Positions 24,298 through 41,325 of a DNA stretch of 64,000 nucleotides are shown here, in pieces. Origin of the DNA: Heyndrickxia coagulans 36D1 (GTDB lineage: Bacteria; Bacillota; Bacilli; Bacillales; Bacillaceae_C). The position numbers and the translations under genes are program-made. The stretch covers positions 558,001 through 622,000 of the forward strand of contig NC_016023.1 of NCBI RefSeq assembly GCF_000169195.2, read 5' to 3'. The notes under the pieces were generated by a model. That model was given only the letters and a program-made list of their open reading frames with translations, did no database searches and was not told where the DNA came from. Position 1 is the first letter of the stretch, and every line of letters begins with the position of its first letter.

Positions 24298-24825
24298 TCA
24301 AAACTTACGGTTGCTTACGGTATGATTGATCATTCTGTCCCACCCTTTATTTTTTTGTAAAACTTTTATCAAAACATAGCCAAAAATGGCCCCTGCAAAA
24401 GAGCTTAAAAAGAAGGCAGGGATAAATCCGAAAAGCGTTGACGCTTGGCCGAGTAAGAAAACAGCAATGGGATAACATGCCAAGGCACCGAGAATGCCTG
24501 TCCCCATGACCTCCCCAACAAAGGCAAAAATGAGCTTATTCGTCTTCGCGTACAGATAAGCTGCCAAAAACGCGCCGATCATGCTTCCCGGAAAGGCAAA
24601 AATACTCCCCGTCCCAAGCAAGTTACGTAAAAGCGAGGATATAAAAGCTTGCGCAACCGCATAACCGGGGCCGAGCAAAACAGCCGAGAGTATGTTGGCA
24701 AAATGCTGTACCGGAAAAATTTTTGCAAAACCAACCGGGATATAAATCAAACTGCTGGATACAGTTGTGATAGCTGCAATAACTGCAGTTGCTGTTATTT
24801 TTTGTGTTTTTCTCATTAGAACCAA
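24298..24825 (-). CDS. thiW: Energy-coupling-factor S component ThiW
   Basis: A 175-residue membrane protein of about six helices, the substrate-binding subunit of an ECF vitamin importer. The N-terminal KITATAVIAAITTVSSSLIY, then PVQHFANILSAVLLGPGYAVA and GSIFAFPGSMIGAFLAAYLY, are characteristic of ThiW, which takes up a thiazole precursor of thiamine. It would need the shared EcfA/EcfT module encoded elsewhere. It follows tenA by about 30 bp in a TPP-riboswitch operon, which supports a thiamine-precursor role. Confidence 0.88.
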   Translation of the reverse strand: MVLMRKTQKITATAVIAAITTVSSSLIYIPVGFAKIFPVQHFANILSAVLLGPGYAVAQAFISSLLRNLLGTGSIFAFPGSMIGAFLAAYLYAKTNKLIFAFVGEVMGTGILGALACYPIAVFLLGQASTLFGFIPAFFLSSFAGAIFGYVLIKVLQKNKGWDRMINHTVSNRKF

Positions 24826-24855: not shown

Positions 24856-25533
24856 TCAGACCGGCCAGTCTTGTTTTTTATCGTTCATATCCCAAAATAA
24901 ATACTCATACTTTGAGGCTATTTGAAAATGGCGTTCTAAGACTGCCAGTTCCGTTTCTGATTTTCCGCTTGCCAGTTGGTCCATTAAGTCAATTAACCAC
25001 TGCGTTCCGGAGCCGAACGTTTCTGAAGAATAGGTTTCGATCCATTTCTTGTAAGGATTGGCCTCCAATGTGTCTCGATGATTTACTTTTAGCAGTTTCC
25101 CAATTTCCCAATAATCCCAGGCACACGGCAACAAGCAGGCAACAAGTTCAGCCAAGCTTCCATTGGCGGCCACTTGCAGCATGTAACTCGTGTAAGCAAG
25201 GTTGACCGGCGTTGGTTGGGTTGCTTCTAAATCCGTCCGAGTAACGCCAAACTCGGCAGCGTATTGGCGGTGCAGTTCCATCTCAAAATGCAACGATTCA
25301 TGGAGCACCGCAGCAAATCTCGTCATCATGCCGAGGTTACCCGCTTTCACAACACCCATGGCAAACAGTTTTGCGTACTCAACTAAATATACGTAATCCT
25401 GCTTTAAATAATAGATAAATTTATCTCTTTCTAAAGTTCCGTTTCCCAGTCCCACGACAAAAGGATGGTTATGGTTTTTCTCCCAAATCGGCTGGACATT
25501 TTGATATAGTCTTTCTGTAAAAGATCGTTTCAA
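24856..25533 (-). CDS. tenA: Thiaminase II / aminopyrimidine aminohydrolase
   Basis: A 225-residue soluble helical protein that hydrolyses amino-HMP-type breakdown products of thiamine so the pyrimidine can be reused. Family features are NHPFVVGLGNGTL, FIYYLKQDYVYL, HESLHFEMELHRQYA, the cysteine in ACLLPCAWDYWEIG (the catalytic region) and YKKWIETYSSETF. I start at the TTG at 25531-25533, eight bases after an AAGGAGG site. A longer in-frame start runs back towards the riboswitch terminator and lacks a ribosome binding site. Confidence 0.92.
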   Translation of the reverse strand: MKRSFTERLYQNVQPIWEKNHNHPFVVGLGNGTLERDKFIYYLKQDYVYLVEYAKLFAMGVVKAGNLGMMTRFAAVLHESLHFEMELHRQYAAEFGVTRTDLEATQPTPVNLAYTSYMLQVAANGSLAELVACLLPCAWDYWEIGKLLKVNHRDTLEANPYKKWIETYSSETFGSGTQWLIDLMDQLASGKSETELAVLERHFQIASKYEYLFWDMNDKKQDWPV

Positions 25534-25629
25534 CAATGATTCCTCCTTGTTTACCGGAAAGCCGAATGCGGTTTGCAGGCTGGTTTCACCCTTTGCCCCG
25601 AGCAATGGCAGGAGGAGCATCCTCAAAAT

Positions 25630-25657
25630 AAAAAAACCGCCCTCCATCGGAAAGCGG
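25630..25657 (-). terminator. Riboswitch-controlled terminator
   Basis: On the minus strand CCGCTTTCC and GGAGGGCGG form a 9-bp stem (G-U pairs included) followed by seven Ts. It lies between the TPP aptamer and tenA, so thiamine pyrophosphate probably promotes this hairpin. Confidence 0.75.
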
Positions 25658-25695
25658 GTGTATCAATTACAAATCATCAGGTGTAATTTCATCAC

Positions 25696-25767
25696 CTACT
25701 TCCCTTCGCTAGTACGAACTAGATCAGGTTCAAAGGGTACTTCTCAGCCAACCCGGCGCCCCTAGTA
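25696..25767 (-). ncRNA. TPP riboswitch (thi box)
   Basis: The minus strand carries the conserved aptamer blocks in order: CTAGGGGCGCC, GGCTGAGA, ACCCTTTGAACCTGATCT, a variable P3 arm GTTCGTAC, and GCGAAGGGAAGTAG. These are the thi-box hallmarks for thiamine pyrophosphate binding. It precedes tenA-thiW with a terminator in between, so excess TPP should switch the operon off by early termination. Confidence 0.96.
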
Positions 25768-25799
25768 GATTATTATGAATATTCATTTACATTACTCTT

Positions 25800-28861: not shown

Positions 28862-29200
28862 TTCTTATCCCTCATCTCTATTGAAAAATCATATTACTCT
28901 AAAAACTGAACTTAGGTTTTTATATTAAGACCAAGTCATCCATTCTGCATCATGATTGCTTCGCAGCCAGCAAAAAAATAGCAATGTTTAGCACATTTTA
29001 TCCAGCTTTATTTTATTAAACTTCAGCGAAAAGAAAAATTCGGAAAATTTTATTGCAAATCATAAATATTCATTATGGTTCCGGTAATAAGCCATTTATT
29101 GGAGATTTTCGATGTTGAATAAAAAATAGCCCTAATTTTGGAAAAATTGATTTTCACAAAAACCTGACACGTATTTGGGAAAATGTCTGGGTTGTACGGC
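28862..29200. other. AT-rich intergenic region, no gene seen
   Basis: About 340 bp at the left boundary of the restriction-modification island. I see no open frame with a ribosome binding site and no clear terminator, att-like repeat or tRNA end. Confidence 0.4.
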
Positions 29201-30748
29201 TCAATGCTGGCTCTCTTCGACGAATTCTTCGTGAAATTTCTTTAGCTCTTCTGAACGATTAAATACTTCCATATTATGCTTGTCCGGATTAAACGTCGGC
29301 ACTCTGTTATAATCCGGTGTAGCTTTACGGAACATTATAGAATCGAGGTATACTACAATGTCAATTTTGGAGGCTTTATTTAGCTTTAAATCAAATAGAA
29401 GGCAGCATTCATCTACATGCAGTTTTGCATAATCTGTAAGATCGAGGCTTCCATTTTCTAACCTTTTAATGTATTTTGAGTCGTTAATAACGTAATGACC
29501 ATCAACATAAATAAAATTACCGCTGTCTATAATCTTTGCGAATTCCGGATTTGCATAGTATTCAAAAAAGGAATCGCTTAGGCTAATACTGTATGTTTGA
29601 TTCTTATGTAATGAGTCTGCTTTAAATGAATAATTGCTGATAAAGTGGTCATCGACGTATGTATATACACCTTCAACTTCCTTATATCCAAGGTCAAGCA
29701 TCCTTATTTTGGCTGCTATCCTTGACACCTGGAAGAAGTCTGCCAATTCATACACGACGTTTTCCATTATATTTAACCTGTCATGAGTACCAAAAAGGAG
29801 CTCATTCTTTATTATCAGCTCCTCAATCTTTTTAATGGTCATTGATTTAGGCATAAGGATGCGAGGTGCTATTCCGTTAGCATGCCATTCCATCCAGTCT
29901 TCTGGTGTCCATTGCTTTTTGTATTTTGTTGTTTCGTTTACTCTACAGCTTATCAGCAAAGCATCGCTGTTATATGTCTTAACTAACTCATGGTATTTTC
30001 TATGCTTATACCAATGAACACACTCATGAATAATGGTATTGTTCATACACCCTATGTTTCGCATGAAATACACATTAGGATCTACGAGAATTGTTCCTCT
30101 TGAAACTTCCAAAGGCTTATATGTTCTTTCATTTCTGTCGTAATACTCTATTGTGCAATCGTCAAAGACTATTTGACCAAATATAGTGAAATGCTTTGTA
30201 AGCTGGATTTCCTTAACCTTAAGCCCCATTCTTTTCACTACTTCATCTACTGGAATGGGCATAGGAACACTTAATGCTTCTGGGCAAAACTCATTTAGAA
30301 ACTCAGTAGCAACATCGTCAAACTGTTCCTTTTCTATAATTGGCACTAAATACTCAGACAGTCGGCCTAATTTGCTCTCTCTGTACTTGTTATATATTGA
30401 AACAGAGTTGATTTGAAAATTCTGAATCCCGTCATCAAGGTCAGCTTTACAGGAGATACGGAACCATTGTTCTATACCGTCAGTCTCGCGATTCCTTCGT
30501 ACTGTTTCTGCTATTTCAACTTCTGCGGAAATAATTACATCAAATAAAATACTGTTACCTGGCGAGTCGGTTATGTCTATAGTTATAATGTCAAAGTCGG
30601 ATAATGCCGCTTCATCCGGTGATTGCACACGGTATGAGTTGGATTCCAGCTTATCCGGGTTGTCCTCAATATACTCGGACAATTCGTCAAAGAGTTCATT
30701 GTAATACATATTTGCAATAACATCTCTGAACGAGCTGACGCTTGCCAT
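29201..30748 (-). CDS. ImmA/IrrE-family metallopeptidase, large form
   Basis: A 515-residue protein with three visible parts. Residues 1-150 are an unrecognised acidic domain. Residues about 160-345 contain the zinc peptidase motif HECVH (241-245) within NTIIHECVHWYKHRKYHELV, and the second family block EWHANGIAPRILMP (287-300), as in ImmA/IrrE proteins. Residues about 360-515 are an unrecognised C-terminal domain. Such peptidases usually cleave a partner XRE repressor. A small XRE gene is divergently transcribed 160 bp away. A GGGAGG site precedes the ATG. The role in the island is inferred, not shown. Confidence 0.8.
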   Translation of the reverse strand: MASVSSFRDVIANMYYNELFDELSEYIEDNPDKLESNSYRVQSPDEAALSDFDIITIDITDSPGNSILFDVIISAEVEIAETVRRNRETDGIEQWFRISCKADLDDGIQNFQINSVSIYNKYRESKLGRLSEYLVPIIEKEQFDDVATEFLNEFCPEALSVPMPIPVDEVVKRMGLKVKEIQLTKHFTIFGQIVFDDCTIEYYDRNERTYKPLEVSRGTILVDPNVYFMRNIGCMNNTIIHECVHWYKHRKYHELVKTYNSDALLISCRVNETTKYKKQWTPEDWMEWHANGIAPRILMPKSMTIKKIEELIIKNELLFGTHDRLNIMENVVYELADFFQVSRIAAKIRMLDLGYKEVEGVYTYVDDHFISNYSFKADSLHKNQTYSISLSDSFFEYYANPEFAKIIDSGNFIYVDGHYVINDSKYIKRLENGSLDLTDYAKLHVDECCLLFDLKLNKASKIDIVVYLDSIMFRKATPDYNRVPTFNPDKHNMEVFNRSEELKKFHEEFVEESQH

Positions 30749-30821
30749 ACCGTACCTCCCAATAACACTTCATCATACAGACCAGATATTTCCTTATGTA
30801 AATTATAGCATGAATTTCGCA

Positions 30822-30864
30822 AAACACAATAATTAATTTGCGGGCTCAAATTTTTATTGTGTTT
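30822..30864. promoter_or_regulatory. Divergent operator-like inverted repeat
   Basis: AAACACAATAA (30822-30832) and TTATTGTGTTT (30854-30864) are perfect 11-bp inverted arms 21 bp apart, in the spacer between the peptidase and XRE genes. They are a good candidate for XRE binding controlling both directions. A TATAAT lies at 30887-30892, but it is so close to the xre start that its use is doubtful. Confidence 0.55.
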
Positions 30865-30907
30865 CATCCTACTTTGTGGTATTCTCTATAATGGCGAGGT
30901 GAAAATT

Positions 30908-31114
30908 ATGACCGTAAGCTATAAAAAACTTTGGAAACTCTTAATTGATAAAGATATGAAAAAGAGAGATTTAAGAGAAGCGGCTGGTATTAGTACATCT
31001 TCTATGGCAAAACTCGGGAAAAACGAAAATGTAACGACTGATGTTCTTGTGAAGATTTGCAAGGCCTTAAAGTGTGATATTTCTGATATTATGGAGATTG
31101 AGCCGGATGAATAG
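30908..31114 (+). CDS. Small XRE-family transcriptional regulator
   Basis: A 68-residue protein that is almost only a Cro/C1-type helix-turn-helix: DLREAAGISTSSMAKLGKNE and VTTDVLVKICKALKCDISDI are the recognition and closing helices. This short form (YozG/HTH_26-like) often sits next to defence and mobile genes. I start at the ATG at 30908 with a GGCGAGGTG site. It is 103 bp upstream of mod on the same strand, so it could set restriction-modification expression, and it is divergent from the ImmA/IrrE gene. Confidence 0.85.
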   Translation: MTVSYKKLWKLLIDKDMKKRDLREAAGISTSSMAKLGKNENVTTDVLVKICKALKCDISDIMEIEPDE

Positions 31115-31217
31115 TGTAGCATCAGCTTTTGTTTAATAGTAACGCAACAATGATGTTAATTGATTTATTATGAACAAAGCTGGAATTAATAAAATATTTT
31201 GAAGTGAGGTTATAGAG

Positions 31218-32888
31218 ATGAATAATCAATTTTTTAATACTGTTCTTGAGATATTAAAACAGGATCAACGTTTTTTTACTGATAACGGGGAATTGCTACG
31301 TAATTCTGTATACGAAGCAGCAATGCAAATGGATTCAAATCTCATTAAATTACTATTATCAAACGAAGAAACTAAAAAGCGCTTCTTTACTGATATTGAC
31401 GGAATTCTCGTTTTCGATAAAGTAGGATTCGGATGGGTAATAAACAACAGAGAATTCTTGCCTGATTCATATACTCGTTATAAAAATAAAATAGGCCTCG
31501 CAAACAGCCGAGATGAGTATATATCTACATCAAAAGATGTGGAACTCGTTTTTCCCTATAAAGACTGCATACTTGAAGGCGGTCAGACAAAAGAAGACCA
31601 AAAGCGGGAAGAGATATTTTACAATGAAACGCTTGCACCGGATGAAGTGGACAGGCTCTTATACCCCAAGGTATTCAGCAATGCAAAGCGTTATTATACC
31701 GATGGTACAGAGCCCGTCACCGAGTTTAAAGACACTGATAACCTCATTATAAAAGGAAATAATCTGCTTGCAATTTCTTCTTTACTCAAAAGATATGAGG
31801 GGAAAATAAATCTTATTTACATAGATCCACCCTATAATACGGGAACGGATTCTTTCGGATATAACGATAACTTTAAGCGTTCGACATGGCTCACATTTAT
31901 GAAAAACCGTCTGGATATTGCTCAGAAGCTGTTGTCTCCTGAGGGTGCCATTTACGTTCAATTGGATTATCATCAGGTTCATTATGCTAAAGTATTAATG
32001 GATGAAATATTCGGGGAAAGCAATTTTCAGCGTGAAATTATATGGCGAATCGGTTGGTTGTCAGGCTATAAAACGACAGACAACAACTGGATAAGAAATC
32101 ACGATACAATACTATTTTATTCAAAGGATTATAAAAGGCTCAAATTCATAAAAAATTATATTCCAAAAAGCGAATTCAAGGAAATAGCAAATACTAATAT
32201 CGAAAGGTACCCTATCGAAGATGTTTGGAACGCAAATGAATACGACGACCTTAATAGCATTGCTATTGTATCGTTTTCCGGAGAAACCGTTTCAAAAATG
32301 CTCACACCTCAGGATGAAGTAAAAGGTCAGAAGTCCGAAAAATTAATAGAGCGAATAATAAAAGCGCATACAAATGAGGGTGATATCGTATTGGATTTCT
32401 TCGGCGGTACCGGTACTACCGCTGCAGTTGCCCATAAATTAAGACGACGTTATATAGTATGTGAACAACTCGATAAACACATAGATATCTGTATTCGCCG
32501 TATGAATAAGGTTATCGAAGGAGAACAAAGCGGCATATCAAAAAAGAACAACTGGCAAGGCGGCGGCTCTTTTGTTTATTGCGAGCTTGTAAAGCTAAAT
32601 CAGAATTATGCCGATAAAATACAAATTGCCGAAAATGATAATGAACTTTCCGGTATTTGGTACGAAATGAAGGAAACCGGTTTTATAAGCTGCTATGTAA
32701 ATCCAAAAGACATTGATATCGAGTCAGAAGATTTTAAATCTCTCTCATTTGATGAAAAAAAGCGTTTACTTATGGAGCTGCTTGATAAAAATCAACTCTA
32801 CGTTAATTACTGTGACATTGATGATGAGGATTATAATATTTCAGAAGCTGACAAGGCATTTACTAAAAGCTTTTACGAGGGGGTATAA
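31218..32888 (+). CDS. mod: Type III restriction-modification DNA methyltransferase (Mod)
   Basis: A 556-residue adenine-N6 methyltransferase and recognition subunit. The catalytic motif DPPYNTGT (203-210) comes before the SAM-binding motif [14 protein letters not shown] (about residue 392). This beta-class order is used by type III Mod proteins. The segment between the motifs is the expected target recognition domain. A GAGGT site precedes the ATG. The res gene starts two bases after the stop, so the two are translationally linked. I see no simple-sequence tract of the phase-variable kind. The target sequence cannot be read. Confidence 0.92.
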
Positions 32889-32890
32889 TA

Positions 32891-35482
32891 GTGTACCTAT
32901 ATGAGCAAATTCAACAAGCAAAGAATTATGGAGCATACAAAGAATTACCAAAATATATTCCTGATAATCTAAATCCTTCTTTTGAATTACGTCCGTATCA
33001 AAAAGATGCCTTTTGCGATTTTATAACATATTTCGAAAATGAAGCACTTTGTAGAAAGCCAACACAGACACTTTTTCATATGGCAACTGGTAGTGGAAAA
33101 ACACTTATTATGGCAGGACTTATGCTATATCTTTTTAAACAAGGATATAGAAATTTTCTCTTTTTTGTAAATTTATCTAATATCGTACAAAAAACAAAAG
33201 AAAATTTCTTAAATCGTACTTCATCGAAGTATCTTTTTGCTGATGAAATTAATATTGACGGAGAAAAAGTTAAAATTCGTGAAGTTAATAACTTCCAAGC
33301 AAGCGATCCGAATGAGATAAATATTTGCTTTACAACTATACAAGGGCTTCATTCAGATATATGGTTTGTCAAAGAAAACTCTGTTTCTATAGATGATTTT
33401 CGTGATAATAAAATAGTTCTTATATCGGACGAAGCCCACCATCTCAATGTTGATACTCGCCGCGGCAACAAAAAAGAAATTGAAAATTATAGGAGCTGGG
33501 AAAGTACAGTTAAGAGTATTTTTGAAATGAACAATCAAAATGTATTACTCGAATTTACTGCAACATGTGACCTTGCAAACGAAAATATAAAACGCGAATA
33601 CGAGAACAAAATAATATTCGATTATCCTCTAAAGAAGTTTAGGGAAGATGGATACTCAAAGGAAATACGCACCATGCGTTCCGACATACCAATTATGGAA
33701 CGAGCATTACAGGCGATTGTATTAAGTCAATACCGCTTAAAAATATTCGAAGATTTTCGCATTAGCTGCAAACCAGTTGTCTTATTTAAAGCTAAGACTA
33801 TTGCTGAAAGCAAAGCGTTTATGAAAGAGTTTATTGATACCATAAAAAATCTGAATGGTTCAGTCCTAGAACGGCTGGCATCTATTACGGAAATAGACAC
33901 TATGAAAAAAGTATATTCGTATTTTGAAAAAAACGGAATAACCTTTGAGCAATTGGCACAAGAAATAAAAGAAGCTTTTGGGGAAGATAAGTGCCTTTCA
34001 GTTAATGAAGATTCTGAGGCAGAAAAGAATCAAATAATTGTCAATTCGCTCGAAGATGCCGATAATCCCTATCGAGCAATTTTTGAAGTAAGAAAACTAG
34101 ATGAGGGTTGGGATGTACTTAATTTGTTTGACATTGTACGTCTTTATGAAACTCGAGATGCAAAAAATGGCGTCCCCGGCAAAACGACAATAGCAGAAGC
34201 ACAGCTTATAGGACGAGGAGCAAGATATTATCCGTTTAAAGTGGAAGAATGGCAAAATAAATATCAGCGAAAATTTGATAAAGATTTGGATCACCCCCTT
34301 CGCGTCTGTGAAGAACTATATTATCATTGCCAAAATGAATCTCGTTATATTGCCGAATTATATAGAGCACTAAAAGAAATTGGTCTCTATATGGAAAATA
34401 CAGTCACGAGAACATATAAATTAAAGGATGAATTTAAAGCAGATCCACTTTATCAGCAAGGATATGTATTCTATAATGAAAGGCTGATAAAAAACAGATC
34501 AGAAGTTACAGGTCTATCACCTACTATACGCAATCATTCATATGATGTAACTATTGCAACTGGTCGTGCAGCTGAGGATACTATAATGTTAGGTGAAGAA
34601 GGAACAAAAGAGAGTTCGGTAACAACATACACTAAACATACATCTTTTGCTGAAATGGCAAGGATTAATTATTCGTTAGTACATCGAGCTCTTCGTAAGT
34701 ATGATGTGTTTAAGTTCAATAGACTAAAAAGCTATTTCCCACAATTAAAATCTATAAGCCAATTTATCTTTGACGATAATTATCTTGGAAATGTAAAAAT
34801 AGATATTACTTCAAGATATGAGGATCCTTCACCTGCTATCCTTTATGAGGCTTGCGTCAATGTTTTGAAAAAAATAGCTACTTCAATTTCTAGTATTGAA
34901 GAAACTTATGAAGGATCTAAAACGTTCATTGCAAAATATATTCGAGAGGTATTTAAAGATAAGCGGGTAAATTATACTAATCCTACAGATGGAGGCTTAG
35001 GTGTTTCACAAAACGATAGTACTGTCCCTATGGCCTGGAAGCTTGATTTATCTAAAGAAAATTGGTTTGTATTTGAAGATAACTATGGAACATCAGAAGA
35101 AAAAGCATTTATTGCGTATTTCAAACAATATGTTGATAAACTAAAAGCTAAGTATGATAAAGTTTACCTAATACGGAATGAGCGCCAATTAGCAATATAT
35201 TCTTTTGATGGTGGTGAACGCTTCGAACCAGATTATCTATTATTTTTACATTCGCCTAAAGTTAATGGGTATGAACAACTACAGATATTTATTGAGCCGA
35301 AAGGTACCCATCTTGTAAAAAATGATGGATGGAAAGAAGACTTTTTATTACAACTTGAATCAAATGCCATTCCTGTAGTTAAATTTGCAGACGACAATAA
35401 TTACAGGATATGGGGATTCCATTTCTTTAACAGGGATTTAAGACGTAAAGAGTTTGATGAAGATATGAATCGGCTTTTATAA
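32891..35482 (+). CDS. res: Type III restriction endonuclease subunit (Res)
   Basis: An 863-residue superfamily 2 helicase-nuclease. The Walker A motif is MATGSGKT (ending at residue 71), the DEAH-like box is LISDEAHH (about 178-185), and helicase motifs continue with AEAQLIGRGARYYPF (motif VI, about 435-450). The C-terminal endonuclease shows FEPDYLLF and FIEPKG (about 778-803), a PD-(D/E)xK arrangement. It acts with Mod to cut unmodified DNA after ATP-driven translocation. It starts at GTG. All motifs look intact, so the system is probably active. Confidence 0.92.
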   Translation: MYLYEQIQQAKNYGAYKELPKYIPDNLNPSFELRPYQKDAFCDFITYFENEALCRKPTQTLFHMATGSGKTLIMAGLMLYLFKQGYRNFLFFVNLSNIVQKTKENFLNRTSSKYLFADEINIDGEKVKIREVNNFQASDPNEINICFTTIQGLHSDIWFVKENSVSIDDFRDNKIVLISDEAHHLNVDTRRGNKKEIENYRSWESTVKSIFEMNNQNVLLEFTATCDLANENIKREYENKIIFDYPLKKFREDGYSKEIRTMRSDIPIMERALQAIVLSQYRLKIFEDFRISCKPVVLFKAKTIAESKAFMKEFIDTIKNLNGSVLERLASITEIDTMKKVYSYFEKNGITFEQLAQEIKEAFGEDKCLSVNEDSEAEKNQIIVNSLEDADNPYRAIFEVRKLDEGWDVLNLFDIVRLYETRDAKNGVPGKTTIAEAQLIGRGARYYPFKVEEWQNKYQRKFDKDLDHPLRVCEELYYHCQNESRYIAELYRALKEIGLYMENTVTRTYKLKDEFKADPLYQQGYVFYNERLIKNRSEVTGLSPTIRNHSYDVTIATGRAAEDTIMLGEEGTKESSVTTYTKHTSFAEMARINYSLVHRALRKYDVFKFNRLKSYFPQLKSISQFIFDDNYLGNVKIDITSRYEDPSPAILYEACVNVLKKIATSISSIEETYEGSKTFIAKYIREVFKDKRVNYTNPTDGGLGVSQNDSTVPMAWKLDLSKENWFVFEDNYGTSEEKAFIAYFKQYVDKLKAKYDKVYLIRNERQLAIYSFDGGERFEPDYLLFLHSPKVNGYEQLQIFIEPKGTHLVKNDGWKEDFLLQLESNAIPVVKFADDNNYRIWGFHFFNRDLRRKEFDEDMNRLL

Positions 35483-35724
35483 TATCGCATTTATACAAAT
35501 ATTGCTAAATTTATATTTGATTTACATCTATCCTGTATCCTCAACCCCCGAAAAAACGGCGGTTATCTAATCTGGTAACTCAACTATAGATTTTCGGGAC
35601 GGTTGATATGTTCCCTCAAGCAACAAAAATAGGGTTTCCTGACATTGCCACACATCCGGCAGATCGGCCTTGAGAAAAGCTAAATGTCTGGAAACCCTTT
35701 ATTTACAAGCTTTTCAGTTTTTTA
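35483..35724. terminator. Convergent intergenic region with two inverted repeats
   Basis: CCCGAAAA (35547-35554) and TTTTCGGG (35591-35598) form one hairpin. AGGGTTTCCTGACAT (35631-35645) and ATGTCTGGAAACCCT (35684-35698) form a 15-bp near-perfect pair with T runs on the minus side, a likely terminator for rlmD after intron splicing. The second pair could also be the ends of a tiny insertion. It separates res from the rlmD 3' exon. Confidence 0.5.
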
Positions 35725-35738
35725 TTACTCAACTCTTG
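35725..35738 (-). other. rlmD: Predicted 3' exon of rlmD
   Basis: If the group II intron ends at 35739, the next 14 bases complete the split codon as TCA and continue AGA GTT GAG TAA, giving a C-terminus VTLMSRVE. This reading depends on the intron boundary, which I placed from domain VI and the terminal AY rule. Confidence 0.65.
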
Positions 35739-37640
35739 ATAGAGTAGAACAGTGGGAATACCACCGTCCCCTCATCAAACCGTACGTGCGGTTTTCCCGC
35801 ATACGGCTTTCCGATATTCTTCTTCCTTCAGCATTCAGCCGCAAATACTTGCCAGTCCTGCCTGTACGGTCAATTCTCTGACCTTAGCCGCATTCCCAAG
35901 CCTGTAGTTGCGTTGTTTCTTCCGATTGTACCACCGGGTAAATTTGTGATTGATATACTTATCTATCTTCCACAACCATGGTCTGGCAAATCGTCTGGTA
36001 TAATAGTTTCTCATACCAATGATTTTTGGATTGAGCAGCTTCACCATTTTTTCCATGCTCAACAGCAGTTTACTCGGACTTGCAAACACCTCTTTTATGT
36101 TGGCTCTCATTTTCTTCATAGCCTTCTTGGACGGTACCTGCTGTAATGTCCAATACCACTGCCAGCTTTTGTTTCTGAAACGCTGAAATCTATTATTAAA
36201 GCCAAGAAAATCAAAACTGTCTTTTCCAAAATACATATCAACCAGCCTTGTTTTCTCACTATGTAGTGTTAATTCCAGCTTTCTCATAATCCACTTGACT
36301 GCACGTAAGGCTTCCTCTGCATGAGATAATCTCTTGCACAGTATCACAAAATCATCTGCATAACGTACTAATTCACCCAGATGTCCAAAAGCTTTATTCC
36401 AATATATATCAAAATAATTCAGATATACGTTGGATAACAATGGTGAAATAACTCCGCCCTGTGGTGCCCCAACTGTACTTTCACTGTACTGACTGTCTTC
36501 CAGCACTCCTGCCTTCAGCCAGCCTTTTATCAGCTTCAGCACTCTACGGTCAGTTATTCTCTGTTTGACCAGCAAAAGTAGTTTGTCATGGTTGATGCTC
36601 CCGAAATAATCTTTTATGTCAGCATCTATTACCCATAATGCCCCACCTTTGTCAGCTACTTCGAATATCCTATCCATTGCCTGTTTAGCACTTCGTTTCG
36701 GTCTAAAGCCATACGAACAAGGCTGAAAATTGGCTTCAAATACTGGTTCTATTACTATCTTTGTAGCCATCTGTACTACTCTGTCCTTAATCGTAGGTAT
36801 TCCTAATGCTCTTTTTCTACCATCTTGTTTTGGAATATAGGTTCGTCTAACAGGCTTGCATCGATATTTCTCTGTCCGCAATTCTTCCGCTATTTCGTTC
36901 AGCAGTTTTTCTTCGCCGTACGCTTTCACGTCTTCAATACTGACTTTATCGACACCACCTGCTCCACCATTCTGTTTTACCCGTTTCCATGCTTCTTCTA
37001 AGATATCCTTACGGTATATCTTGTCATATATTGCATAGAACTTTCTCTTTCGGTCAGCTTTGGCTGCAAGGTATAGTCTGTTTTGGAAGTCTCGTACTTT
37101 TTCATGGGTGTTAATAGCTTTATCGGCAATCACCGGTAACTACCTCCTTTACAGACATGAATAAAGTTGTGCCCCTTTCCTATGTACAGTTTTGCTGTCT
37201 GTACAATCTTCGGTACTATGAGCACTTCTGACTGCCTCTTTGCAGGATTGCAACTTCGCTATCGCTTATATGCATCCTCTTTACAGTTTCCTGTGCAAAG
37301 TAGGCTCTCTCCAGTTCCGACAAATACTTTCCTAACGTGTCACTACCTCTACACCGCAGGGTTCCTAGGTATTGCATTTAGGGTTCTTCATACCGTCTGC
37401 TGTCTTCGCTGTTGATGTCCCAGCTCGACTCCCTGTTGTTCCCTTTCGGGAATGTCAATAACGGTGCGGCAGTATTCACTTCATGTTACGACCCGTCAGT
37501 TTGTCTGCTCTTTTCAGAGCATTCCGTAACGCTTCAACGCATAAATTGCTTCATACGCTGGTTACTGACTAAGTGGCTGCCCTACCTTTACCACTACAGG
37601 ACTTTCACCTGTTAGCATTTGCCAGCTTCGCTGGACGCAC
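35739..37640 (-). mobile_element. Group II intron inserted in rlmD
   Basis: The minus strand begins GTGCGTCC at 37640, the group II 5' consensus GUGYG, followed by a structured leader. An intron-encoded reverse transcriptase occupies the domain IV position. Near the 3' end a 34-nt domain V (35777-35810) has the AGC triad and a GAAA-like tip, closing as CGTACGGTTT. Domain VI follows, ending CTACTCTAT at 35739. The total of about 1.9 kb is normal. Removing it joins ATGT to CAAGAGTTGAGTAA and restores the rlmD frame, which supports both boundaries. Confidence 0.88.
35835..37133 (-). CDS. ltrA: Group II intron reverse transcriptase/maturase
   Basis: A 432-residue intron-encoded protein. Reverse transcriptase blocks are visible in order: RRTYIPKQDGRKRALGIPTI, FQPCSYGFRPKRSAKQA, DIKDYFGSINHD, APQGGVISPLLSNVYLNYFD, and the catalytic VRYADDFVILC (about residue 275). 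The maturase domain X follows (IIGMRNYYTRRF). There is no C-terminal HNH endonuclease, so mobility would rely on nicked or replication-fork targets. It helps the intron fold and splice and copies it into DNA. All catalytic residues are present, so it looks intact. Confidence 0.95.
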   Translation of the reverse strand: MIADKAINTHEKVRDFQNRLYLAAKADRKRKFYAIYDKIYRKDILEEAWKRVKQNGGAGGVDKVSIEDVKAYGEEKLLNEIAEELRTEKYRCKPVRRTYIPKQDGRKRALGIPTIKDRVVQMATKIVIEPVFEANFQPCSYGFRPKRSAKQAMDRIFEVADKGGALWVIDADIKDYFGSINHDKLLLLVKQRITDRRVLKLIKGWLKAGVLEDSQYSESTVGAPQGGVISPLLSNVYLNYFDIYWNKAFGHLGELVRYADDFVILCKRLSHAEEALRAVKWIMRKLELTLHSEKTRLVDMYFGKDSFDFLGFNNRFQRFRNKSWQWYWTLQQVPSKKAMKKMRANIKEVFASPSKLLLSMEKMVKLLNPKIIGMRNYYTRRFARPWLWKIDKYINHKFTRWYNRKKQRNYRLGNAAKVRELTVQAGLASICG

Positions 37641-39018
37641 ACATCAATGTGACGCACTCCACATGCACCGTATGCGGAAACAGGTCCACCGGCTGGACGG
37701 CAGTCAGTTTGTAGCCAAACGGTTCGAGTTCTTTTATATCCGTTGCAAATGTGTCCGGATTGCAGGAAACATAGACGATCCGCTGTGGTTTTGCCCGGCC
37801 GATTTTGCGCATCACTTTGCCGCCGGCGCCGGAACGCGGGGGATCGAGGAGCAGCAGTTCCGGGTTGCCGAAGCTTTCCAGCACTTCATCAATCCCTTTG
37901 CGTGCGTCTTTGGCAAGGAAATATGTGTTTGAAATGCCATTGTCTTTTGCATTCCGTTTGGCAGATTCAATCGAGGTTTCGACGATTTCAATGCCGGCAA
38001 GTTCCCCGACACGGTCCGCAAACGGCAGCGAGAATGTGCCGACGCCGCAGAACAGGTCAATCATTTTTTCCGTTTTCTCCGGCCGGCCCATTTCAAGCGC
38101 AAGATCGACGAGTTTCTGTGCCTGTACCGGGTTGGTTTGGAAAAATGTATCGAACCATATCCGGTAACGGTAACCGCCCATTTCATCGTAAATAAAATCA
38201 CGTCCAGAGAGGACATGTGTTTTTTCCGCCTGTGTCCGGTCTGCCCAGTCGGTATTTTCGAGCCAGAGCAGGCTTTTTACTTGCGGGAATTTGCCGGTGA
38301 TCCGCTCTGCCAAATCGCGGGCCGCTTCAGCTAGTTCCCCATCCGGCGCTTTTGTTGCAAACAGGGCGAGCATCATTTCCCCTGTTGCAAAAGACTGGCG
38401 CACCATTAAGTGGCGTAAGAGGCCTTCGTGCGCATCTTTGTCATAGCCTTTTAAGCCATGCTCTTTTACCCACGCGGCCACTTCCATCGTGCCATCCACC
38501 ATTTCTTTTCCGGCAATCAGGCAGGTTTCAAGTGGAATCACTTTCCGGAAATTCCCTTGCTCATGGAGGCCGAGCGATCCATCCGGAGCAAATGTAAATT
38601 CCATTTTATTGCGGTAATGCCAAGGATTGTCCATGCCGATCGTATCACGGACAAGCGCCGGGTCAAAGCCTTGTGCGGCAATGGCTTCTTTTACATGAGC
38701 AGTTTTTTGTTTTAACTGGCCCTCGTATGCCCAGTGCTGCCAGACACAGCCACCGCAACGGTCAAAGTGCGGGCACATGGGCACCACCCTTTCCGGATGG
38801 GCTTTCAGAATTTCATCCGGCAGCGCCTTTCTTCTTCTTTTCTCCGGCTGATCCACGGTGACGCGTACTTTTTCCCCCGGAAGCGTACGCGGAATGGTCA
38901 GTTTTAATTTTTTCGCGTTACCAAGTTCATTTTCACGCCAGACAACCGCCTGCCCGGAACCTTTTGCATCAAGGCCGCGGATTTCTGTCACCAATGATTC
39001 CCCTTGCAAAATGGCCAA
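37612..39018 (-). CDS. rlmD: 23S rRNA (uracil-C5)-methyltransferase RlmD/RlmCD, split by a group II intron
   Basis: A SAM-dependent RNA methyltransferase (B. subtilis YefA/RlmCD type) that methylates uridines of 23S rRNA. It has an N-terminal TRAM-like domain, iron-sulphur cysteines in CPHFDRCGGC, the SAM motif IDLFCGVGTFSLPFA, the DPPRSG motif and the catalytic cysteine in VYVSCNPDTFATD. I start at the TTG at 39016-39018, eight bases after AAGGAG. The coding exon proper ends at 37641. Unspliced RNA reads ten residues into the intron (CASSEAGKC, stop at 37612), while splicing gives SRVE. Either product keeps the whole catalytic domain. Confidence 0.92.
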   Translation of the reverse strand: MAILQGESLVTEIRGLDAKGSGQAVVWRENELGNAKKLKLTIPRTLPGEKVRVTVDQPEKRRRKALPDEILKAHPERVVPMCPHFDRCGGCVWQHWAYEGQLKQKTAHVKEAIAAQGFDPALVRDTIGMDNPWHYRNKMEFTFAPDGSLGLHEQGNFRKVIPLETCLIAGKEMVDGTMEVAAWVKEHGLKGYDKDAHEGLLRHLMVRQSFATGEMMLALFATKAPDGELAEAARDLAERITGKFPQVKSLLWLENTDWADRTQAEKTHVLSGRDFIYDEMGGYRYRIWFDTFFQTNPVQAQKLVDLALEMGRPEKTEKMIDLFCGVGTFSLPFADRVGELAGIEIVETSIESAKRNAKDNGISNTYFLAKDARKGIDEVLESFGNPELLLLDPPRSGAGGKVMRKIGRAKPQRIVYVSCNPDTFATDIKELEPFGYKLTAVQPVDLFPHTVHVECVTLMCASSEAGKC

Positions 39019-39177
39019 TCCAATCACTCCTTCCATTGAAAAACAAATATCTTGAACACGTTTAAAGTGTAAAATTTTCGATTCAAAAAAACGGGCGTTT
39101 CACTGCCTTGTAATAGTATAATGGAAAAAAAGCGGTTTGCAAATGTGCATCGCGCCGTTGCAAGCCATCCCGTAAGT

Positions 39178-40014: not shown

Positions 40015-41325
40015 TTAAGTAAACCTTACTTGTATTGGCTTACTTAAATGGGTGAAATCCTCGTCTGTTAAAATGCGTGTCCGAAACGATTCCAACAGAT
40101 TTGAGGATTTTTCTTTTGCCGTTTTTTTGAGTGCTTTTAAGATTGACGAACCTTTTTCAAACAGCTGTCTAATAATATCTGTTATTTGAACTAATAAATA
40201 ATGATTTTTCATGGCTGTGTAGTTTTGGCTATTGGCATGTTCTATATTGTAACGATTATTTTTTTGTTCGTTAAATCCTTGATTTTCAATCTTCCAGCGG
40301 CTTCTTCCTGCAGCGATGAGCCGTTCCACGTTCTTTTTCGTGATTTTAATATCCGTTATAAATACATACTCTTTCGATTTCCCATCCTCTGTTTTCATTG
40401 TGGCCTCCATCAGATTGACCGTTCTGTCTTTGTAGGCAATATCATTCACCCAAACTAATGAATTCTGATCCTTACTTTGTTCCAGCTCTTTTATTGCCTT
40501 AAACTCCGTCGAGATACTTTTAATTCTCCCTTCCTTAAATCTGCATATATATTTCCATTTGTGCGCCCTGCACAGATTAAATACCGTTTCACATGCATAG
40601 AGACTATCTCCCAAGATACAAATCGGTAGTCTTTTAAATATTTTTTTTATTTTCTTTGCCAGCCTGTCGAAGGCTTTTAATTCACAATCTTGCTTAGAAA
40701 CATTTTCTGATTCATTTTCGATAAATTCGGAGGCAATACTGAAGACCATATCCCCCACGACAAGCTTGGCTTCAAGTACATGGTGCATATAAAGTACGTT
40801 CGTTTCTCCTGTTTCTTTATTTGTATATGCCCGTCTCAGGCAGTGTTTACAATGTTTCTCATGAAAGGTGTGTAATCCAGTTCCATCAATGATGACACCC
40901 CAGTACTTTCCTTCAATTCGATAAGACTCGAGAGACCTTTTTTTCAATAATTCTTTAATCATATACGTTCTAATTTTTTCTAATTCATTTACATCTAAGC
41001 CAGATAAAAAGTCGTTAATTGTATCATAATGTGGAAGTTCTTCAAGAGAATCTAAGCCTAACACCTTCCCTACATTTTTAATACATTCTTCTTTATTAAA
41101 ACTCTCACTCATGTTTCTCATGGATTTTAGGCCGGTCATATTTTTCAACATCATCGTAAATAAAAGGACCTCTGGACCATAAGTGATATAGCTTTGATGT
41201 CGGTGGTCTGCTACCTTTTTTAGGTTATTCATCAGGTCTTTGAAAAAATGCTTCTGAATTTTAAGGAACTCGAAAAAATAATTTGCTTCTTTTTCACGAT
41301 TTCTTTTTTCTTTTCTGGTAACCAA
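40015..41325 (-). CDS. IS4-like DDE transposase
   Basis: A 436-residue transposase with an RNase H-like catalytic core split over the protein. The first aspartate is in WGVIIDGTGLHTF (about residue 147), the second in ICILGDSLYACETV (about 240), and the glutamate in RSRWKIENQGFNEQKN (about 345), a YREK-like block typical of IS4-related elements; ISNCY/ISDol1-type is another label. It starts at TTG behind GAGGAGG. The frame is intact. I could not define terminal inverted repeats with confidence. A MITE-like copy lies 35 bp from its start. Confidence 0.85.
   Translation of the reverse strand: MVTRKEKRNREKEANYFFEFLKIQKHFFKDLMNNLKKVADHRHQSYITYGPEVLLFTMMLKNMTGLKSMRNMSESFNKEECIKNVGKVLGLDSLEELPHYDTINDFLSGLDVNELEKIRTYMIKELLKKRSLESYRIEGKYWGVIIDGTGLHTFHEKHCKHCLRRAYTNKETGETNVLYMHHVLEAKLVVGDMVFSIASEFIENESENVSKQDCELKAFDRLAKKIKKIFKRLPICILGDSLYACETVFNLCRAHKWKYICRFKEGRIKSISTEFKAIKELEQSKDQNSLVWVNDIAYKDRTVNLMEATMKTEDGKSKEYVFITDIKITKKNVERLIAAGRSRWKIENQGFNEQKNNRYNIEHANSQNYTAMKNHYLLVQITDIIRQLFEKGSSILKALKKTAKEKSSNLLESFRTRILTDEDFTHLSKPIQVRFT

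Follow-up and report, generated by a model that had tools for sequence, protein, structure and literature searches.

A long ImmA/IrrE peptidase protein linked to restriction-modification operons of prophages, and its truncated copy in Heyndrickxia coagulans 36D1

A prophage-derived island in H. coagulans 36D1

The chromosome of Heyndrickxia coagulans 36D1 contains a type III restriction-modification (R-M) system, preceded by the gene of a small XRE-type regulator and, divergently from it, by the gene of a long peptidase protein of the ImmA/IrrE type. We analysed this group of genes within a stretch of 64,000 nucleotides (NC_016023.1, positions 558,001 to 622,000), called the window, to which coordinates refer unless a locus number is given. 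The peptidase gene of the window is a damaged member of its family, and it is the family itself that constitutes our finding. The GC content per kilobase is 33-40% over 26-36 kb and 40-53% in most other kilobases of the window, in agreement with the AT-rich island recognised in a first-pass annotation made from the sequence alone.

The modification gene mod (31218..32888, plus strand, 556 residues) encodes an N6_N4 methylase core (N6_N4_Mtase PF01555, E-value 1.6e-46) together with the type III-specific N-terminal region (TypeIII_RM_meth PF12564, 1.2e-26), and matches PADLOC MTase_III at 7.5e-173. The restriction gene res (32891..35482, plus strand, 863 residues, GTG start) follows 2 bp behind the mod stop codon in the same operon; it matches ResIII (5.4e-34) and, over residues 17-855, PADLOC REase_III (5e-131). 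Judged by these Pfam and PADLOC matches, both genes encode full type III subunits of predicted activity, as the first-pass annotation had it when it called them intact. The ratio of non-synonymous to synonymous substitution rates (dN/dS), calculated here and below against the related loci L056 or L053, is 0.069 for res and 0.14 for mod, the latter with saturated dS.

The operon opens with a gene for a 68-residue protein of the HTH_26 family (30908..31114, plus strand; HTH_26 6.9e-22), hereafter mini-XRE. It starts with ATG at 30908 and stops 103 bp before mod, with the size and spacing that had been annotated, and its dN/dS is 0.045. With these ratios, and with that of the peptidase gene given below, the four genes are under constraint. 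At an E-value limit of 1, mini-XRE gave neither a capH match in PADLOC, as a separate CapH would, nor a Control_protein match, as expected of an R-M C protein; in relatives, a helix-turn-helix (HTH) is fused to the peptidase instead.

The peptidase protein (29201..30748, minus strand, 515 residues) belongs, according to Pfam, PADLOC, alignment and a fold model, to the ImmA/IrrE (PprI/CapP-like) group and is built of an N-terminal alpha+beta domain, the peptidase and a middle domain. Its zinc-binding motif HECVH (residues 241-245; 30014..30028, minus strand) is read directly in the DNA and lies in invariant columns of the family alignment: H241, E242, H245 and a later E287, the likely third ligand, are identical in all ten rows. 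By sequence the core is weakly recognised. Peptidase_M78 (PF06114) gives E 0.0018 and 18.5 bits against a curated cut-off of 22, NCBIfam gave no family for the window protein, searching PDB sequences with it returned nothing relevant, and the sole PADLOC match is capP, at 1.5e-8 for both the window protein and that of L056. We nevertheless accept the core because an AlphaFold2 model of the peptidase domain, made from the L056 relative (97% identical over the protein; pLDDT 89.6), matches PprI and IrrE best among PDB entries: the PprI-single-stranded DNA (ssDNA) complex 8sln at 7.7e-5, IrrE 3dti at 1.1e-4 and 3dte, with a TM-score of about 0.38. Together with the capP match, this model bears out the ImmA/IrrE core that had been assigned from HECVH.

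The 515-residue protein is not complete. Relatives that are 97-98% identical (L053, L056, L132) are about 640 residues long and have an HTH at their C-terminus. Among 111 complete non-redundant frames, the window included and 14 further frames touching a contig end left out, 105 reach the C-terminal reference end; the window copy is one of the six short ones. A premature stop ends its frame; alignment to the relatives goes on for about 26 bp beyond this stop, and homology ends at 29175. Searching by tblastn with the C-termini of six relatives found no HTH remnant past the stop below E 0.8. The gene is thus truncated at its 3' end, and the DNA-binding end is lost, which the annotation had missed. 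That this end is an XRE domain in relatives follows from profile matches to HipB, C.BclI and, weakly, 7t5u. A fold search with the full-length protein gave no match below E 0.001 and printed no aligned range; SinR and DdrO occur among its matches at E 0.07-0.2 and presumably match the C-terminal end, since an alignment search found nearly only XRE HTH domains there. The remaining gene shows a dN/dS of 0.047-0.06, and, in a comparison of five sequences, 22 synonymous and 5 non-synonymous codon changes occur in the window copy alone. Its first 515 residues are still under constraint, which does not date the loss.

The spacer between the two divergent genes contains the perfect 11-bp inverted repeat described previously (arms 30822-30832 and 30854-30864). 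What had been missed is that the repeat encloses a second palindrome, AATTTGCGGGCTCAAATT (30835..30852), which is found in more distant relatives as well and is our candidate operator. All 16 listed spacers next to an XRE at least 78% identical to that of the window (the window itself and the near-identical loci L080, L082 and L084 are counted in) have the motif TTTGCGNNCGCAAA, at a distance of 71-92 bp upstream of the XRE gene; of 19 divergent-peptidase spacers where mini-XRE is less similar, two have it. It was counted as present at 8 or more of 12 letters, for which the chance is about 0.07 per spacer at 8 letters and 0.008 at 9; 14 of the 16 spacers reach 9. Since the peptidases at these 16 loci are either 97-98% or only about 40% identical to that of the window (two are fragments), the palindrome follows mini-XRE and not the peptidase. 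The 11-bp repeat was considered as the operator itself and placed behind the inner palindrome; judged by eye, both arms are present in the closest relatives too, and they carry outward-facing TTGTGT boxes that could be -35 elements, likewise by eye. A generic palindrome search of the spacers gave results mostly not above shuffled sequences.

The whole block is derived from a prophage. Its segment 29175..35739, mod core excepted, shows blastn homology to prophage relatives throughout: L056 (Tepidanaerobacter sp. GT38) matches at 29175-31834 and 32410-35739, and the other closest relatives L053, L132, L052 and L073 match parts. The segment corresponds to the cargo end of a rumA-integrating prophage left in the chromosome. 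The outer edge of prophage homology is the 3' end of rumA in L053 and L056 (other genes in L052, L073 and L132); about 216 bp at 35524..35739, conserved in all five closest relatives, are probably attachment-side prophage DNA; and the rumA gene of the window (37612..39036, minus strand; RumA-type uracil-5 RNA methyltransferase, PF05958 1.5e-23), a host gene, is of the same family as the gene adjoining the cargo in relatives and thus represents the attachment gene of the prophage family. Streptococcus phages, many of them named after rum, also possess a protein of the long peptidase family. Past 29175, no prophage homology is left in the window. As for the replication module of such prophages, in the H. 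coagulans genome DUF2800 gave no match and the sole match to phage-type PolA is a 931-residue frame elsewhere (36%), VapE not having been searched for; DUF2800 was likewise silent in all 14 control genomes, so its absence is weakly tested. On account of these two results we read the block as a relic, a decayed remnant of a prophage beside rumA, which the first-pass annotation had not recognised.

L056 has a close relative of the window res, yet its mod differs in residues from about 205 to 400, the first 205 residues being 90% and the last 130 residues 82% identical. The corresponding segment 31834-32410, with the methylase motifs and the target region, is replaced while the mod ends and Res are kept, which we interpret as a probable whole-core specificity swap. 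In L053 the peptidase (97%) and XRE (96%) are nearly those of the window, yet the type III system is unrelated. R-M systems thus seem to be exchanged behind a constant peptidase/XRE pair.

Linkage of the peptidase family to R-M operons

The peptidase family was followed through 161 loci, the window included, which gave 125 after removal of redundancy and 89 with 3 kb of upstream sequence or reaching rumA. A strict R-M marker lies within 9 kb upstream of the peptidase in 67 of these 89 loci, with R-M systems of many types; the figure is 66 if each locus is scored without the markers derived from itself or its near-copies. As controls, 40 arbitrarily placed windows of 9 kb gave two with such a marker, and 93 downstream flanks gave one, by which simple chance adjacency is rejected. 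Differing neighbours, which the first-pass annotation would have taken as a sign of such adjacency, are indeed the rule, but they are mostly R-M genes. Coupling to type III systems as such, which it had suggested, is rejected as well, by the criterion that the annotation itself had set: only a minority of the listed peptidase loci have type III genes. What stands of that proposal is the notion that peptidase and XRE form a switch connected with restriction, which fits the comparative data. Eight non-redundant loci lie outside phage-type surroundings, the window among them, and five of these have R-M genes.

Gene order is suggestive of common expression in part of the loci. The next gene is an R-M gene of the same strand in 16 of the 89 (LlaJI, HsdR, HsdS or GmrSD), and in 15 of these 16 the gap is below 80 bp (-10 to 75 bp, with gene starts as assigned in this analysis). 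In 20 of the 89, mini-XRE is the divergent neighbour of the peptidase. Genes of L116 and L161 that match the PADLOC candidate families PDC-M30A/M41A were left out of the R-M count; the 368-400-residue protein concerned recurs in L116, L161, L386 and L391, where it forms, by size, a pair with one of 257-264 residues behind mini-XRE. On Enterococcus faecium plasmids (L031:8068-9319), the sequence of the peptidase homologue is divided between two annotated genes, preceded by genes for an Eco57I-type methylase and a DUF262 protein.

The C-terminal part of the long protein also occurs in other proteins. HsdR proteins with type I domains end in the middle+HTH module of the peptidase family in Sporosarcina luteola (L060:6785-10753) and in a Clostridia metagenome-assembled genome (L063:4165-8085), 64 and 42 bp, respectively, upstream of a full peptidase gene. 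Given the 89% likeness of the two HsdR, a single fusion event may account for both; the fused modules are 36-37% identical to the neighbouring peptidase protein. Free middle+HTH proteins are encoded directly upstream of the peptidase gene in L112, L146, L164, L170 and L028.

Using mini-XRE as bait in viral contigs, the best 80 of 120 matches gave 67 non-redundant loci. The long peptidase is divergent from mini-XRE in 22 of them, and a short ImmA takes this place in 15, mostly paired with a 128-residue XRE (two of the 15 are doubtful: in L381 a full-length peptidase lies at a greater distance, and L350 has a fragment); 27 have another neighbour, and three too little flank. Three cellular members of the short pair (L016-L018) match capP at 2.4e-8 to 2.6e-16, and their XRE proteins match capH at 8.7e-5 to 8.4e-8, although HTH_VI or control-protein scores beat capH in two of the three. 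Accordingly, by these profile matches, a CapH/CapP-like pair can fill the peptidase slot in sister prophages.

A candidate controller of restriction and its alternatives

We propose, with a probability of about 0.5, that the long protein is a one-chain, CapH/CapP-like controller of R-M operons which is degraded in the window. In intact relatives, mini-XRE would bind the spacer palindrome and thereby set both divergent promoters. By analogy to PprI and CapP, in which the damage cue is ssDNA, a signal of this kind could trigger cutting of a repressor by the peptidase; candidates for this repressor are the C-terminal part of the peptidase protein itself, a free paralogue of the middle-HTH kind and mini-XRE. 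R-M output would therefore rise during phage attack or DNA damage. As the DNA-binding end of the window peptidase is gone, the circuit present there today is probably composed of mini-XRE and the R-M genes, the peptidase being a remnant or a protease acting in trans. PprI is activated by ssDNA, which is stated to activate the cutting of CapH by CapP as well (PMC10904395), and CapH/CapP, CapW and CapK/CapS are presented as regulators that respond to damage and govern the immune operon next to them (PMC13373217).

Little is known of how bacteria turn restriction up or keep it in check when they are attacked, and the discussion of the RptR paper leaves open how its repressor is removed (PMC12255303). 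A peptidase family that forms the last gene of varied R-M operons or is divergent from them, with an HsdR fusion in two genomes, is a testable candidate. It would extend portable controllers of immune operons (CapH/CapP, CapK/CapS, CapW) to front-line restriction and would show that controller and R-M type are shuffled independently in prophages; intact relatives beside many R-M types suggest a reusable control unit for bacterial immunity. A wider version of the proposal is tentative and on balance rather doubtful: a dedicated family of one-chain protease-repressors, PprI-like and with the repressor target in the same chain, would govern restriction in many Firmicute prophages and on some plasmids, regardless of R-M type, and could act on the restriction enzyme itself where the repressor module is fused to HsdR. 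If the module fused to HsdR were a true target of the protease, this would be a proteolytic form of restriction control. Searches of open-licence PubMed Central text listed no paper on the combination of peptidase, XRE and R-M, and the downstream gene is not mentioned in the passages of the LlaJI paper that were consulted.

Several observations weigh against control of R-M operons by the peptidase. For the control, 20 hand-placed regions of only nine genomes supplied two windows each, 40 in all, and the R-M markers come mostly from loci of the studied kind, so that unusual R-M systems would be missed and the control may be under-read. No strict marker is present in 22 of the 89 loci. Among DUF2800-bait prophages (80 loci, 64 of them unevaluable; the remaining 16 not de-replicated), R-M genes occur in 14 of the 16, the long peptidase in four, all with R-M genes, a short ImmA in two and no peptidase in ten. 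Part of the linkage may therefore reflect a shared cargo hotspot, since the slot can hold R-M genes without the peptidase. Other cargo also lies beside the peptidase: TrkH/TrkA potassium-transport genes take the place of R-M genes in L052 and its near-copy L167, and a subtilase is found in L061. In Streptococcus prophages a CI-like S24 repressor is encoded next to or near the peptidase on the other strand. Another neighbour than a peptidase, including HamA with a helicase and DUF2326, accompanies mini-XRE in the 27 viral loci noted above; in a search of 398 genomes, mini-XRE has a match (1e-12) in 81, and 6 of 30 fetched loci (1.5 kb flanks) have an adjoining peptidase, to which a 58-residue fragment in L313 may be added. 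As to the spacer, a sigma-70 promoter scan found no promoter between mini-XRE and the peptidase, which leaves the -35/-10 readings to the eye, and a single set of spacers served both to derive the palindrome motif and to count it, so that its conservation is a description and no independent test. Given R-M systems without peptidase, other cargo, S24 neighbours and mini-XRE genes without an adjoining peptidase, the coupling of peptidase and R-M is frequent but not obligatory.

The hotspot and the S24 neighbours lead to a different explanation, which we consider possible if somewhat unlikely: the long peptidase would be a lysogeny regulator, a one-chain switch of the ImmR/ImmA kind, and R-M cassettes with their own HTH_26 controller would land in a hotspot between rumA and the replication module. 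Of the non-redundant loci that have 3 kb or more upstream and 4 kb or more downstream, 73 in number, 65 carry phage-module genes; this agrees with it, as do the other cargo and the R-M genes present without the long protein. Against this, the long protein is absent from 12 of the 16 evaluable family prophages, two of which have the short ImmA instead, and for this reason it is hardly a core prophage switch; this role is weakened further by its operon-like position at the tail of R-M genes in 15 loci (gaps of -10 to 75 bp) and by the fusion of its C-terminal module to HsdR.

Still less likely, the protein may be a separate anti-phage effector that shares the cargo slot with R-M systems and does not regulate them. 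Defence-type genes do occupy the neighbouring place in other mini-XRE loci (HamA with helicase, DUF2326), and a functional defence screen turned up an ImmA/IrrE peptidase domain among others (PMC9519451). In 21 of the 27 loci with other neighbours, however, the nearest gene lies on the R-M strand, while the peptidase is often divergent over the conserved palindrome; its DNA-binding end and the capH/capP-like substitute also point to regulation. For the window alone, it is improbable that mini-XRE controls the R-M genes by itself, as an autoregulator like C proteins or RptR, with the peptidase as dead wood hitchhiking beside a selfish R-M system: the lost C-terminal HTH with prophage homology ending at 29175, the DUF2800 and phage-type PolA not found in the genome and a palindrome that tracks the XRE would suit this, but the excess of synonymous changes in the peptidase (22 against 5, dN/dS about 0.05) speaks against it, unless the truncation is too recent to show.

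A regulatory role of the peptidase family invites comparison with known controllers. CapH and CapP, reportedly described by Lau and co-workers in 2022 as controllers of CBASS and other immune operons, likewise combine an ImmA/IrrE-type peptidase with an HTH protein adjoining an immune operon; the capP match of the long protein and the short ImmA pair in the divergent place of 15 of the 67 viral loci add to the likeness. Unlike them, the long protein joins peptidase and HTH in one chain, together with N-terminal and middle domains, the operon is an R-M operon, mini-XRE has no CapH match, and the window copy is without HTH. Membership in the CapH/CapP group thus fails on the separate CapH partner; the long protein may still work in a like manner. 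PprI (IrrE) and DdrO of Deinococcus share the peptidase fold, DdrO being among the weak full-length fold matches, and differ in that the long protein is one chain, with no GAF-like domain identified, in a host other than Deinococcus. Switches of the ImmR/ImmA type occur in integrative elements and prophages. They too combine, on mobile DNA, an XRE regulator and a nearby peptidase of the ImmA/IrrE type, whereas the long peptidase is not a core gene (4 of 16 evaluable prophages) and is linked to R-M cargo.

RptR and the C proteins (PMC12255303) resemble mini-XRE as tiny DNA-binding proteins that open an R-M operon and have a palindrome in the promoter region. Mini-XRE, however, is of the HTH_26 family rather than of the RptR fold and precedes many R-M types, with a divergent long peptidase at 22 of the 67 viral loci. 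CapK with CapS and CapW/BrxR are portable, damage-responsive regulators upstream of many kinds of immune operons, and differ by being kinase or WYL based, not peptidase based (PMC13373217). Finally, the rum-type prophages of Streptococcus (phi-m46.1, phi-SC181 and others) have the long protein family and similar replication genes, and differ in their nearby CI/S24-like repressor; annotations there call the long protein hypothetical or an XRE regulator, or divide it between two genes.

Further features of the island and its relatives

Between the prophage end and rumA, the window contains a group II intron on the minus strand (35739 to about 37614; Rfam RF02003 at 37481-37614, RF00029 at 35739-35811), whose maturase reading frame lies at 35835-37133 (group_II_RT_mat 1.5e-127). 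The intron is outside the system; position 1631 of L053 aligns to both 35739 and 37641 of the window. On the far side of rumA, near the island, a transposase-like gene (DDE_Tnp_1-associated) is located at 40015-41325, and a thiamine pyrophosphate (TPP) riboswitch (25684-25773, minus strand) lies ahead of the genes 24856-25647 and 24298-24825.

In related prophages, genes for HamA-like (Hachiman), DUF2326 and AAA_23 proteins lie upstream of operons led by mini-XRE (L359, L340, L377), and the region beside the DUF2800/PolA module is, by its gene content, apparently a defence hotspot. The mini-XRE frame of L052 is broken and its peptidase is shortened. In the Streptococcus phages L027 and L029, the drug-resistance genes mefA, cat and optrA and that of an aminoglycoside enzyme are found near the peptidase gene.

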